Assembly: GCA_902558885.1 (NCBI GenBank) | Contig: CACEFQ010000004.1 | Coordinates: 62,001-126,000 of the forward strand | Length of the DNA stretch: 64,000 nucleotides | Direction: 5' to 3' | From: an uncultured SAR116 cluster alpha proteobacterium | GTDB taxonomy: Bacteria > Pseudomonadota > Alphaproteobacteria > Puniceispirillales > Marisalimonadaceae | Shown here: positions 13,709 through 19,305 of the stretch, one piece after another | How positions within the stretch are numbered: the stretch's first letter is position 1 | Layout of the letters: every line of letters starts with the position of its first letter | Notes under the pieces: generated by a model | Database searches by the model: none | What the model saw: only the letters and a program-made list of their open reading frames with translations | Told to the model about the DNA's origin: nothing | Translations under genes and position numbers: made by a program

Positions 13709-13782
13709 GCGGGTATTGTGTAGTGGTAAGACCTTAGCCTTCCAAGCTAATGACGCGAGTTCGATTCTCGCTACCCGCTCCA
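13709..13782 (+). tRNA. tRNA-Gly (anticodon TCC)
   Basis: GCGGGTA/TACCCGC acceptor stem, TTAGC-CTTCCAA-GCTAA anticodon arm, GCGAG-TTCGATT-CTCGC T-arm, encoded CCA. Confidence 0.95.
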
Positions 13783-14134
13783 TCTAATGAAACTCAGTCG
13801 TCCTAAGCATGAGATATGCAGCATATTTTGTAATATGTGTGCTTATAGAACAGACCAAATGCTAGAACCATTTAAATGTTTCTTACTTATGTAAAAAGCA
13901 TTTGCAAAATATATAAAACTTAGAGTTAAAGAATTAAAAGAATATATTTTGTTAAATTATTTTTTCAATTCTATATATATAATTGCCCATTTCTATAACA
14001 CATTCGGACTCTTACAACTTGCCTTCTTTTTGTGCTGTAAAACTATACTTTAGTGGTTGCTATATAGTTGTTTCCATTAGATGCACTTATGTGGCACTTC
14101 AAATTTTAAATTTTTATAATTTATACAAAATATC

Positions 14135-14842
14135 TTATTTAAAGTCATATGTTGTAATTTTTTTTAAAAATAGTCTTGCCCACATATATAAAATAGAAAA
14201 GCCATTATAAAAGATTTTCATTTTTGACTCCCCACCAATTCTTTTAGGTTCATCACCAGGTATCTCAGATAATTTCAATTTGTTAACTTGTGCTAATCCT
14301 GTAATTAATGGTTCAAAAACAGGGCCTTTATTATACAATGATATTTCATTCCAATTAAAAGCTGATTTTCTAAAGCATCTAAATATAGTTAATGAATCAG
14401 TTATTCTATTTGGTCCTAAAAAATTAAACATAAGAGAAAAAATATAATTACCAAAAGCCGTGACAATAGTATCATCATAAGATTTTGCATTATCTAAATA
14501 TCTAGAAATTACAACGACGTCATAACCTTTATTAATTTCAATAACTAATTTTTCTAAATCATCTGGCTTACAGTTACCATCAGGACTAAATTCAATTACA
14601 TAGTCATTTCGAGATAAATTGACCGCTTCAAGGATAGCATTCTCTAATCCTGGTTTTGTCTGATAAATGATATTATTAAATCCATTTTTTTTTAAAAAAC
14701 TTACTGAACCATCTGTTGAATGCCCGTCAACAATTAAAATTTCATCAAACAAAGATTTTTTTATTTTAGGTATTATTACAGTGAGTGAATCAAGTTCGTT
14801 TAAAATAGGAATAATCAATGTGATTTTTAGTTTTTTTTTCAT
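14135..14842 (-). CDS. Family 2 glycosyltransferase, DPM1-like polyprenyl-phosphate glycosyltransferase
   Basis: TLIIPILNELDSLTVIIPKI, ILIVDGHSTDGS, FSPDGNCKPDDL, RITDSLTIFRCFRKSAF. Confidence 0.85.
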   Translation of the reverse strand: MKKKLKITLIIPILNELDSLTVIIPKIKKSLFDEILIVDGHSTDGSVSFLKKNGFNNIIYQTKPGLENAILEAVNLSRNDYVIEFSPDGNCKPDDLEKLVIEINKGYDVVVISRYLDNAKSYDDTIVTAFGNYIFSLMFNFLGPNRITDSLTIFRCFRKSAFNWNEISLYNKGPVFEPLITGLAQVNKLKLSEIPGDEPKRIGGESKMKIFYNGFSILYMWARLFLKKITTYDFK

Positions 14843-14872
14843 ATTTAAACAGCCTTATGATCAATTCAGTCT

Positions 14873-17800
14873 TTATTTTGGTTTCAAAGCCTCTGAAAAG
14901 GATCTATAGATAAAAAAAGGAAAAGCAAATAAAAAAATACTTATGAAAGAATAAATCTGAAATATAAGTAATTTGTCAGTGAATTCAAACTCAATTGTAT
15001 TTTTTCCTTTTGGAACTATAATAGATTTATAACCTACGTTAGCTCTGTAAATCGATACATATTGATCATTAATTTTTGCTTTCCATCTTTTATCATAGCT
15101 ATCAGAGTATATTAACCAGCTACTTTCAGTATTATTAGAAATCAATTTAATTTTATTATTTGTGAATTTTTTAATTTTTAAGCCATTAGATAAAAATTCT
15201 TTTTCAAATGATTGATTGGTTTTTATTTTAAAGCCCTTATCTAGCTTTGTAAAAGTTTTTTCAGGTTTTATATACGCGGCGCCTTGTATTTTATACAAAG
15301 ACTTTTTTGAGATTCTTATTTCGGTAGTGTAAACAAAATCATTAATCCCAAGAGTGCTTTTTGAATAACTTTGTCCAAAACTTAATGATGTATTTTGTTT
15401 ATTAAAGTTATAGTTTAACTTATCCGATTTTGAGGCTAAAACTTTGCCGTCTTGAAGAAAGTATAAAATATTATCCTTTTTCTGAAAGGCCATATGTACC
15501 CATTTATTTAAAGGAGCAACATTATTAGTACTAAGTTTTCCAAGAGTTGACCCTAAAAAAACAGTATTATTATTATATAAATCCACTGAAATTCTATTTT
15601 TGTTATAACCCATCCAATCTATGATATAATTATTCTGATTATTAGGAATGTCCCCAATTCTTCTTGAGAACCATTCAATGGTCCAATCTTTATTTTCAAA
15701 ATTATATTTATCTGAAGGTTTAAGCTGCCAACCTGTTTTATTACCAATTATGCTTTCTCCACCACTAAAAACTGACACAGGAATTGACCTGTTTTTATTA
15801 TTAGTTGTTTTAAGATAAGAAACATCATTCATAATTCTAGAATGAAATTTTGTTTTCAATTCATCAACCTCTAAAGAATTAACTTTACTAAATAAAGAGA
15901 TTATATTTTTATCATTAGGAAAAGATGGTAAAAAATCCGCAGTAGGATTAATATTTTTAAAATTCAAATTATTATCTGTTAAAATAATATCATTATATTC
16001 AACCTTATCAAGAACCATAGAATTAACTAAGTTAATTTTTGTCTTCCATGTGTTAGCTAAGTTTGGCTTTTTATTAAAATGTAATAATGGAACTGAACAT
16101 CCATTAGATTTTTTAAAATAACTATTTTCATTTAGTATTTTATCTATGTAACCCGAGCCTTCAACAATTATGGTATTATAGTAACTGTCAGAATGAGTAT
16201 AGTTTAAACCTAATCCATATTTTAAAACTCTATAGTAATCAAACATTTCTTTTGAAATTGTTTGGGCAGATAAAAATGGCTCACAAGTATAATAACCACT
16301 TCCAGAAAGCCATAATTCATGTACATTCCAATTAAAATTATATTTATTCATATATTGCTCTAAATAGTTTCTTTTTTTATTTAATTCTTTTTTGCTTAAT
16401 TTATATTTTGGTAAAATAAAATCTTTTACAAAGAATTCTTCTTTACCTTCTATATTTTGAGCTTTTATTTGATGAATTAACTTTAAATGACTAGGATGAT
16501 TATAATGTAAGCTTTTTAGTTTATAATTAATTGAAAAAACAAAACAGAAAATTAAACTATAGAAAAAATATGATATAGGAAGTTTATATTTTATTATATA
16601 ATTTATTTTCCATAAAAAATTTGGAAGGTTTAGATAGAAAATAAATATAAGTAAAATATGAAAAATTAATAAATAAAAATCTAGTTTTAAAAATTCTTCT
16701 ATATTGCTTATATTTGCGGGAATTTCTTTTGTAAAATAGATATGAAATATAGTATAGATAATTATTAAGGAACCTGAAGAAGTAAATTTATTTTTAATAA
16801 AATAATTTAAATAATTTTTAGAAATTAATATTAAGGTGTTTTCTCCTTTCTTAAAATAAATAGCCATTCCATAAGCCGCTAAGATTAAAAAATTAATTTT
16901 TAGAATTATTTCTAAAGCAAATGGTATTATCCTTACATATGAGAAGCCAGGTATCCAATAAAGAAGACTCAAAAGTATCCAAGAGGTTTCCTGAATATAT
17001 AGTAATAAAATAATGATTGTTGAACAGAAGATAGTTTTTTGAAATATATAAATCTTATGATCTAAAGAATAAAAAATAAAAAAAACACATAAAGGACTAA
17101 TATATAAACCAATATCTAAATGAGTATTTAAATCAATAAATCGATTTAAATTATTAAATATATTAAATAACGAATGATCATCAGATAATTGATTTATAAA
17201 TGTATTAAAAGAAAACCCTAAACCATTATCTCTGCCACTTCTAAAAATTTGAATATTTTCGAGAATTAGCTCACTTGAAACAAAGTAAAAATAAGTAAAT
17301 GTGTAATAAATGGATAATATTAAAATTAAAAGTACTCTATAATCTTTAAATAAGTTGAATGTTTCTTTAATTTTTTTAAAAATATTATGAAAAATTCTGT
17401 AATTTTCTTTTGATTTAACATTAAAATAAGTAAATGTTAGAAATAGTAAAACTACAAAATAAAAGGATAAAATATTTATATAAGGTAAATTCCCAAATAA
17501 AGATAATAACCAAGTCAAAATCAATCCTATTAAACTTGATCTATTTGGAGTAACTACTAAAGAATATATATACATGATAAAAAAAGGTAATAAATAATAG
17601 TTTTTTAGACTAAAAGTATTCCAGTAATTAAAATCAGTTCCTATAATAAAGATACCTATTAAAAAGAAAATAATGATATTAGAAAAACCAAGTTTTTTTA
17701 AAAATAGTGAAAATCCAGTAGCACCAATCAATATATGAACGAAGTTGGATAATATAAATAAAAAATAAACATTCTGTATCAAAAACATTTTACCTAAAAG

Positions 17801-18079
17801 CATCAAAATATAATCAATGCCAGTTAATATATAATACCAATAAGTTAAAGATTGCCCTGATTTAAAGAAAGGATTCCATAAAGGAAATTCAGAGTTTACG
17901 TATAAACTATCATAAATAGTTTTAAATGCGAAATAAGTTACCCCTGTATCATTGCCAAAATAGGCATAAAATTGGGATTGATATATTTGATTGAATAAAA
18001 AGAATATACAAATAAGAGGGAAAAGAAAACTTATCACCATAAAAATGTTTTTGGGATATTTTAAAATATAATTAATCAT
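14873..18079 (-). CDS. YfhO-like multi-pass membrane protein (putative GT-C) with an embedded LamG/concanavalin A-like domain
   Basis: About 12 hydrophobic segments in the N-terminal half; C-terminal SSWLIYSDSYDKRWKAKINDQYVSIYRANVGYKSIIVPKGKNTIEFEF is YfhO-like; DWTIEWFSRR...WVHMAFQKKDNILYFLQDGK...EIRISKKSLY is LamG-like. Confidence 0.75.
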   Translation of the reverse strand: MINYILKYPKNIFMVISFLFPLICIFFLFNQIYQSQFYAYFGNDTGVTYFAFKTIYDSLYVNSEFPLWNPFFKSGQSLTYWYYILTGIDYILMLLGKMFLIQNVYFLFILSNFVHILIGATGFSLFLKKLGFSNIIIFFLIGIFIIGTDFNYWNTFSLKNYYLLPFFIMYIYSLVVTPNRSSLIGLILTWLLSLFGNLPYINILSFYFVVLLFLTFTYFNVKSKENYRIFHNIFKKIKETFNLFKDYRVLLILILSIYYTFTYFYFVSSELILENIQIFRSGRDNGLGFSFNTFINQLSDDHSLFNIFNNLNRFIDLNTHLDIGLYISPLCVFFIFYSLDHKIYIFQKTIFCSTIIILLLYIQETSWILLSLLYWIPGFSYVRIIPFALEIILKINFLILAAYGMAIYFKKGENTLILISKNYLNYFIKNKFTSSGSLIIIYTIFHIYFTKEIPANISNIEEFLKLDFYLLIFHILLIFIFYLNLPNFLWKINYIIKYKLPISYFFYSLIFCFVFSINYKLKSLHYNHPSHLKLIHQIKAQNIEGKEEFFVKDFILPKYKLSKKELNKKRNYLEQYMNKYNFNWNVHELWLSGSGYYTCEPFLSAQTISKEMFDYYRVLKYGLGLNYTHSDSYYNTIIVEGSGYIDKILNENSYFKKSNGCSVPLLHFNKKPNLANTWKTKINLVNSMVLDKVEYNDIILTDNNLNFKNINPTADFLPSFPNDKNIISLFSKVNSLEVDELKTKFHSRIMNDVSYLKTTNNKNRSIPVSVFSGGESIIGNKTGWQLKPSDKYNFENKDWTIEWFSRRIGDIPNNQNNYIIDWMGYNKNRISVDLYNNNTVFLGSTLGKLSTNNVAPLNKWVHMAFQKKDNILYFLQDGKVLASKSDKLNYNFNKQNTSLSFGQSYSKSTLGINDFVYTTEIRISKKSLYKIQGAAYIKPEKTFTKLDKGFKIKTNQSFEKEFLSNGLKIKKFTNNKIKLISNNTESSWLIYSDSYDKRWKAKINDQYVSIYRANVGYKSIIVPKGKNTIEFEFTDKLLIFQIYSFISIFLFAFPFFIYRSFSEALKPK

Positions 18080-18786
18080 TTAATTTTTTTATTCATTTTT
18101 TTTATTATTAAATTGGACAATAATGGAAGCAAACCAATTAAAATTAGATAAAATGCAGTTTTTAAACTTAAAATATCAGAGGCTGAGTTAATAGTTTCTA
18201 AATATGCTCCTGAATTTGCAATTATAAAAGCACCTGGAATGGTGCCAATCAAAGAAATTAAAAAAAATTCAATGAATTTAATAGATGTAAATGGCATAGT
18301 TATATTAACAATAAAATTAGGAACAATTGGAATTACCCTTAGTGCAAACAAGTAATAAATTCCATGATTATTAACTTCTGTTTTTATAAAACTAATTTTT
18401 TTAAAAAAACTTTTCTTAATTTGCTCTTTGTAAAATGATCTTATGAAGAGAAAAGTAATTATTGATCCAAGGTTCGACGCGATAATAGTTGTCAAAAAAC
18501 CAATTATTGAACCAAGAAAAAAACCACTAGTTAATGTTAAAAAAATCATTGCCCCTGGCAAACTTAAAAATGAATTAAATACAATCATTACAAAAATAAT
18601 ACAAAATATAAAAAGTAAATTTGTATCTTTGTATGTAATTATTATTTGTTTTTGTTTGAAAAGAATTTGTGTCAAATCAATTTCTAAAAAAAAAAATAAA
18701 AGAAACATAAAAAATGGAATTAATAAAAGAATGTACAGAAAAATATTTTTTACATTATAATTTTTAAATTCTGATTTATTTAACAT
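18076..18786 (-). CDS. TVP38/TMEM64 (VTT domain) family membrane protein
   Basis: LSLPGAMIFLTLTSGFFLGSIIGFLTTIIASNLGSIITFLFIRSF and LRVIPIVPNFIVNITMPFTSIKFIEFFLISLIGTIPGAFI. Confidence 0.88.
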   Translation of the reverse strand: MLNKSEFKNYNVKNIFLYILLLIPFFMFLLFFFLEIDLTQILFKQKQIIITYKDTNLLFIFCIIFVMIVFNSFLSLPGAMIFLTLTSGFFLGSIIGFLTTIIASNLGSIITFLFIRSFYKEQIKKSFFKKISFIKTEVNNHGIYYLFALRVIPIVPNFIVNITMPFTSIKFIEFFLISLIGTIPGAFIIANSGAYLETINSASDILSLKTAFYLILIGLLPLLSNLIIKKMNKKIK

Positions 18787-19305
18787 TATTCCTACTCAAT
18801 AATCTCAACTCTATAACCATCTGTTTTTTTCCATTTTTCAAAGTTTTAAACTACTTTGAAACTCATAATTATTATAGAATAATAATAAATTTTATACTCT
18901 TAAAAATACCTTTTAATACCATAACTATAGATTAAGAGAAAAATAAAATTAAAACATTTTAATTTGAGCTCAGCATGTAACCAAGCACAGTAGATCCAAA
19001 AATAAAACAAAATGAAAAAGAAAAAAAACAATTTAAAATTAAAAGAGTTTATAATTGAAGAAAATGATTTGTTAAGTTTCTTAAGAAAAAGTTTTGTTTT
19101 ACAATAACAAGGATTTTGACGTGTAAGTTCTCTGTATTAAGACACTAAATTAAGATTAAACATTTAGCGCAGACCAAGCAATAGACCATTTTGTGCCTGT
19201 TGTCACAGATTCATCTATACATAAAATGAGGGTAGAGCTTGTTTTCAACTACAAGTGGCGCGCTTGTAGATGAGCATAACTTCTTGGTTCACTAAAGGTA
19301 AAGAT

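Follow-up and report, generated by a model that had tools for sequence, protein, structure and literature searches.

A candidate mobile surface-glycosylation cassette with a VTT-domain protein in the translocase slot, located at tRNA-Gly of an AT-rich alphaproteobacterium

A stretch of 64,000 nucleotides from an AT-rich alphaproteobacterium (the whole stretch is referred to here as the window) carries a three-gene operon that is best explained, with a probability of roughly 0.6, as a mobile surface-glycosylation cassette resembling gtrABC, in which a VTT-domain protein of the COG0398 type occupies the translocase slot. The operon probably adds sugars to the cell surface. This reading follows from the anatomy of the operon, the homology of its family 2 glycosyltransferase (GT2), the YfhO C-terminal domain of its large membrane protein, the pairing of VTT and GT2 genes elsewhere, the failure to find a GtrA and the island origin of the genes. 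Three-component systems of this kind are already known; on the best reading, what is new here is the unexpected VTT protein in the translocase slot of a mobile cassette of that type. The general idea put forward in an initial annotation of this DNA is therefore kept, whilst its views on conservation, on the subfamily of the VTT protein and on the state of the evidence for a GT-C fold are corrected.

Operon anatomy and the island at tRNA-Gly

The three genes lie head to tail on the minus strand, in the order VTT, BIG, GT2. The first gene (18076-18786) encodes a protein of 236 aa that matches the Pfam VTT_dom family at 1.9e-21 (77.2 bits against a cut-off of 33.9). The second, BIG (14873-18079), is open throughout and encodes a large polytopic protein of 1068 aa, whilst the third (14135-14842) encodes a GT2 of 235 aa, a member of the SPDGN subfamily (FSPDGNC), that matches Glycos_transf_2 (PF00535) at 8.4e-19 (68.5 bits against a cut-off of 23.3). 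The VTT and BIG genes overlap by 4 bp (18076-18079; ATGA on the minus strand) and BIG is separated from the GT2 gene by 30 bp (14843-14872). Open reading frames and Pfam matches thus agree with the earlier description of three co-directional genes of these kinds, joined by this overlap and gap.

Sequence comparison with sister genomes supports the operon being the horizontally acquired cargo of a tyrosine-integrase element that would have brought it to tRNA-Gly(TCC) (13709-13782, plus strand; ARAGORN, Rfam) and then decayed, because the ends of the region are shared with integrase-bearing islands and the site is empty in relatives. The island starts at most about 35 bp from the 3' end of the tRNA. 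Its left end (13783-13899, plus strand) matches the left ends of the islands of sister genomes G033 and G035 at 82% and 81% over 118 columns. The opening codons of a tyrosine-integrase gene survive there as a remnant (MCAYRTDQM.. for MCAWRVDQM..), whilst the remainder of that gene is missing; in both of these sisters a tyrosine integrase adjoins the tRNA (Phage_integrase at 8.4e-15 for the G033 copy). The right end (19127-19284), located beside an EamA gene, matches that of the G033 island at 85% over 159 columns and had no match in direct orientation at the empty sites. Six sister genomes (G028, G037, G039, G045, G016 and G012) possess such an empty site, with ferrochelatase, tRNA-Gly and the EamA gene in series within about 0.2 kb; the genes on either side are highly conserved, nine sister genomes sharing the ferrochelatase at 94-96% identity. 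The operon is poorer in G+C than most of the flanking DNA, at 19-26% in 1-kb windows as compared with about 27-38%. Across the genus, the tRNA-Gly(TCC) beside ferrochelatase is an island hotspot (13709-19284 in the window; L209-L217), which is empty, integrase-bearing or filled with other cargo depending on the sister species.

The initial annotation had proposed conservation of the gene neighbourhood in related genomes as a check, and its lack as a refutation; such conservation is not found. BIG is absent from the other 135 genomes of the order, occurring in only one of 136, the window's own, and the order holds no close GT2, the best being 31% identical; a conserved operon is thus ruled out among these relatives. 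As the operon is island cargo, its absence from relatives is no argument against function.

The glycosyltransferase and the large membrane protein

On the basis of its sequence, the GT2 is proposed to be a polyprenyl-phosphate sugar synthase in the role of DPM1, ArnC or GtrB. A profile of the SPDGN family matches DPM1 (5mlz) at 8.1e-15 and ArnC at 2.1e-13 which, together with the PF00535 score above cut-off, places this protein in the DPM1/ArnC kind and bears out its earlier description as DPM1-like. When aligned to 5mlz and the ArnC structures, residues 85-90 read SPDGN where the DxD motif of DPM1/ArnC reads DADLQ. Since serine replaces the first aspartate of this motif, metal and nucleotide binding in SPDGN enzymes may differ from that of DPM1 and ArnC. 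The window protein exhibits all the characters of the subfamily, namely SPDGN[CS] in place of DxD and the DEP.RIGG and SRYL..A.S.DD blocks.

These enzymes constitute an unnamed subfamily that is scattered over many phyla, in which relatives of the window protein are 36-49% identical to it. They were found in four other genomes of a class sample of 385 (G162, G493, G409 and G179; E < 1e-35) and in six other genomes of a phylum sample of 399, whilst a species-wide scan recovered them from Omnitrophota, Elusimicrobiota, Nitrospirota, Verrucomicrobiota, Planctomycetota, Bdellovibrionota, Myxococcota and others. The nearest relatives, at 49% each, belong to a Gammaproteobacterium MAG (L057) and to Reyranella (L056). 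Among viruses the GT2 was seen on a single IMG/VR contig (L218; 41%), with neither a VTT nor a polytopic transferase alongside. In L057 (4969-6678) a small polytopic protein of the PF03706 family (LPG_synthase_TM) lies 3 bp directly upstream of the GT2, in the place taken elsewhere by a VTT, and the small membrane partner of these enzymes may therefore be exchangeable. Many SPDGN GT2 genes also cluster with GHMP-type kinases, TPP-dependent E1/transketolase-like pairs and radical SAM-type proteins (L233, L058, L059, L068, L073, L074, L077 and L150), an arrangement that suggests a route to some unusual sugar common to several phyla.

BIG is proposed to be a sugar transferase of the GT-C type, a fold suggested by its topology and partner genes, with D44 of GNDTG as the candidate acidic residue of the first periplasmic loop. 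Hydropathy indicates about 12 transmembrane segments in residues 8-518 and one near the C-terminus, between which lies a long periplasmic-type stretch (about aa 520-1030). The earlier view of this protein as YfhO-like is borne out for its C-terminal domain only (about aa 980-1036). A whole-genome search with PF09586 (YfhO) matched the C-terminus at 34.1 bits against a cut-off of 28.5 (profile positions 663-831 of 835), a match missed by hmmscan under its default filters, and hhalign aligned BIG with YfhO over residues 981-1035 only (E 2.1e-6). The sole hmmscan match was a weak one to Laminin_G_3 over residues 793-906 (19.5 bits, below the cut-off of 27.6). Neither hhalign nor phmmer found YfhO homology in the N-terminal membrane domain and, with the exception of the window's own gene, phmmer returned no match below E 0.02 for residues 1-545 over the loci. 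A scan of genome contigs with BIG as the sole query and searches of phage and plasmid records likewise gave no match. AlphaFold2 yielded no usable model of the whole protein (mean pLDDT 34.5). This low confidence, together with an N-terminal half that has no significant relative among the loci, counts against the reading of the operon as a gtrABC-like cassette.

Other SPDGN GT2 genes, too, have a membrane protein with a YfhO C-terminal domain directly upstream (L030) or nearby (L078, L075 and L233). L233 thus has all three components, with IS genes between the YfhO-type protein and the VTT-GT2 pair. Presumed transferases with a periplasmic beta-sandwich recur: the GT2-adjacent polytopic proteins of L073 and L051 end in F5/8 type C domains, which are beta-sandwiches of sugar-binding type. 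At L086 (2663-5539) a related GT2 is adjoined by a PMT_2-type membrane protein with PA14 domains, a presumed transferase bearing a periplasmic domain of sugar-binding type.

The very large periplasmic part of BIG, with its possible laminin-G-like fold, would also suit an operon that builds a glycan chain or glycosylates a secreted protein, in the manner of PMT or oligosaccharyl transferases, instead of placing single side sugars on an LPS-like glycan. Two further observations lean in this direction: O-antigen ligase/polymerase (Wzy_C) has no match in the genome, which is 76% complete, a result that also counts against the cassette reading, and gene fragments of TPR and GT41 proteins, the latter of the protein O-GlcNAc-transferase family, occupy the same island site in sister genome G034. 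However, the documented activity of YfhO and GtrB-type partners is the addition of single sugars to polymers (PMC8035078, PMC3688519), which renders chain synthesis or protein decoration an unlikely role.

The VTT protein and its pairing with SPDGN glycosyltransferases

DedA proteins of the COG0586 type have been implicated in the recycling of undecaprenyl phosphate (Und-P) (PMC10127716, PMC12826051), a precedent that the initial annotation had extended to the window VTT. The extension fails, as the protein is by its residues of the COG0398/TVP38 type and lacks those of COG0586 Und-P flippases (PMC10127716). At the first re-entrant tip, YqjA has LENG..PGD whereas the window VTT reads VFNS..LPGA (LPGA at 76) and has no acidic residues; at the second, GRFIAFVR of YqjA is matched by LRVIPIVP, which keeps one of the two arginines (R150) and has proline in place of the other. 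This pattern, with no acidic residues and one of two arginines, is that of COG0398, the subfamily nearest to eukaryotic TMEM41B/VMP1, for which no bacterial substrate is known (PMC10127716). The tree places the window VTT among the housekeeping COG0398-like proteins of its order (support 97/97), a group to which E. coli YdjX is weakly joined, although the window protein forms a long branch whose exact place within the group is unsure. Tip residues and tree together rule out membership of the COG0586 Und-P flippases. Likeness to COG0398 proteins (TVP38/TMEM64-type, including E. coli YdjX and YdjZ) thus extends to the tip pattern, an R-x-x-P-x-x-P motif and the tree grouping; unlike them, the window gene is paired with a GT2 of putative polyprenyl-phosphate type, a pairing unreported for COG0398 in the papers found. 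The AlphaFold model of the protein (pLDDT 76) matches nothing in the PDB at E <= 0.001, which says little because we know of no solved DedA-family structure that it could match. The genome of the window also encodes a third, short VTT of 146 aa (G000:C1:75049-75354; L003), which groups with E. coli YqaA of the COG1238 type.

A neighbourhood check covered 39 outside members of the SPDGN GT2 family with scores of at least 230 bits, and at six of these loci a Pfam-confirmed VTT gene stands directly upstream on the same strand, with gaps of -32 to +85 bp. The six belong to Gammaproteobacteria (L061), Omnitrophota (L072), Rhizobiaceae (L073), Rhodocyclaceae (L080), an unclassified source (L082) and a genome of the same phylum as the window (L146, G523). 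The other 33 have no VTT directly upstream, which counts against the cassette reading; at L077 a VTT lies 2.8 kb downstream of the GT2. An independent plasmid search provided a seventh pair, on pDMC1 of Solidesulfovibrio magneticus (L233), where an annotated 'VTT domain-containing protein' lies 77 bp upstream of a 'glycosyltransferase family 2 protein'. The more distant GT2 loci L083-L135 have no adjacent VTT, the only one there (L127) being 1.5 kb away. Since genomes hold few VTT genes among thousands, adjacency by chance should be far rarer than observed. The initial annotation had placed the VTT at the position expected of GtcA, and this is reinforced by the seven outside loci, in which the pairing recurs in other phyla. 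No description of a VTT-glycosyltransferase pairing was found in the literature searched.

In the GT2 tree the paired enzymes occupy at least four places, with unpaired relatives in between; the pairing is therefore not one clonal lineage, and this spread argues for repeated gain or loss over a single clone. The VTTs paired with these enzymes form a separate branch (99/99) that does not include the window VTT. Leave-one-out profiles of the paired VTTs give the window protein 45-52 bits, as compared with 129-300 for held-out members, so that tree and profile scores rule out its membership of that clade. Over 369 phylum genomes searched with the paired-VTT profile, G523 alone scores as a clade member, although its 339 bits are not independent because it is itself part of the profile; the next score is 152. 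As the window VTT lies on another branch than the paired VTTs, the pairing arose at least twice and, because different branches were recruited, the window protein does not qualify as their orthologue. Such convergence speaks for COG0398 VTTs and SPDGN GT2s being functionally linked. Counting against the cassette reading are the position of the window VTT off the paired branch, its lack of the COG0586 Und-P-binding residue set (PMC10127716) and the fact that BIG stands between the VTT and GT2 genes in the window.

The position of the window VTT amongst housekeeping COG0398-like proteins of its order (97/97) would also accord with a model in which GT2 and BIG constitute a two-component pair and the VTT is a co-transcribed phospholipid scramblase or housekeeping paralogue that flips no sugar carrier; the VTT alone may even be a chance, non-functional neighbour. 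The absence of the Und-P flippase residues points the same way, as does the occurrence of homologues beside unrelated genes, such as a pyridine-nucleotide-disulfide-reductase-like one (L020, L021), which fits a link to aerobic metabolism (PMC10127716). Such a model has to contend, however, with the 4-bp overlap between VTT and BIG in an island whose other two genes are of glycosylation type, and with the fact that, in several phyla, SPDGN GT2s are paired with VTTs of a second branch, and is considered somewhat unlikely. Alternatively, the VTT could return spent Und-P instead of flipping the loaded carrier, thereby easing the drain of the cassette on a shared carrier pool. Reactions of the YfhO/GtrC type free Und-P on the outer face, COG0586 members of the DedA superfamily recycle it (PMC10127716, PMC12826051) and, although no GtrA was found in the genome, another unlinked flippase could serve the loaded carrier. 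The COG0398-type residues of the window protein, with no acidic residue at the first tip and one of two arginines, nevertheless speak against proton-motive-force-driven uptake of the COG0586 kind, and recycling instead of flipping is judged improbable.

Relation to known systems, mechanism and meaning

The multi-component transmembrane glycosylation system CsbB-GtcA-YfhO of Firmicutes (PMC8035078, PMC7389260) shares with the window operon a GT2 that is, in the window, of putative polyprenyl-phosphate type, a small membrane protein and a large polytopic YfhO-domain protein with an extracellular domain region. It differs in that the window has a VTT for the GtrA-family flippase, a short SPDGN-type GT2 (235 aa) with at most one weak hydrophobic segment and a Gram-negative host without teichoic acid; in addition, the YfhO kinship of BIG is demonstrable for its C-terminal domain only. 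The Gram-negative setting had been taken by the initial annotation to call for a wholly new acceptor, which is unnecessary, as gtrABC O-antigen glucosylation is a known Gram-negative counterpart (PMC3688519). The gtrABC operons of Salmonella and Shigella are horizontally acquired O-antigen modification operons with a poorly conserved GtrC (PMC3688519), and the window operon resembles them as a horizontally acquired set of three putative surface-glycosylation genes with the predicted roles of a charging GT2 (GtrB), a translocase slot (GtrA) and a poorly conserved polytopic transferase (GtrC). In contrast to gtrABC, it lacks a GtrA homologue, and BIG was not found to resemble a known GtrC in sequence. 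In support of the initial annotation, the GtrA family (PF04138) has no match in the operon or elsewhere in the 76% complete genome. The ArnC/ArnEF/ArnT pathway of lipid A modification likewise combines an ArnC-kind GT2 with a polytopic transferase; however, the window operon has no ArnE/F- or ArnT-type Pfam match and no L-Ara4N genes.

In the proposed mechanism, the GT2 would charge Und-P with a single sugar taken from a housekeeping nucleotide sugar at the cytoplasmic face, as its homology to DPM1 and ArnC suggests. The VTT, occupying the GtrA/GtcA slot, would then move the loaded carrier, or the returning spent carrier, across the membrane, a role to which the recurrent gene pairing points. 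BIG, as a YfhO-related protein with periplasmic domains of beta-sandwich type, would hand the sugar on to a glycan or protein exported to the surface. By analogy with gtr operons, the likely benefit would be an altered surface chemistry, for example towards phages.

A more far-reaching and tentative proposal, possible but held at well below even odds, is that COG0398 VTTs include polyprenyl-phosphate-sugar translocases, drawn from two branches on at least two occasions to partner SPDGN GT2s in replacement of GtrA. Flippases for polyprenyl-phosphate sugars are poorly known beyond GtrA, ArnEF and Wzx, and the recurrent, phylogenetically scattered VTT-GT2 pair provides a concrete and testable candidate substrate for COG0398 VTTs. 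In the AT-rich alphaproteobacteria of this genus, surface-glycosylation cassettes appear to come and go at the tRNA-Gly island hotspot. If the VTT does act as a sugar-carrier translocase, bacterial surface glycosylation would be linked to the fold of the eukaryotic scramblases TMEM41B and VMP1.
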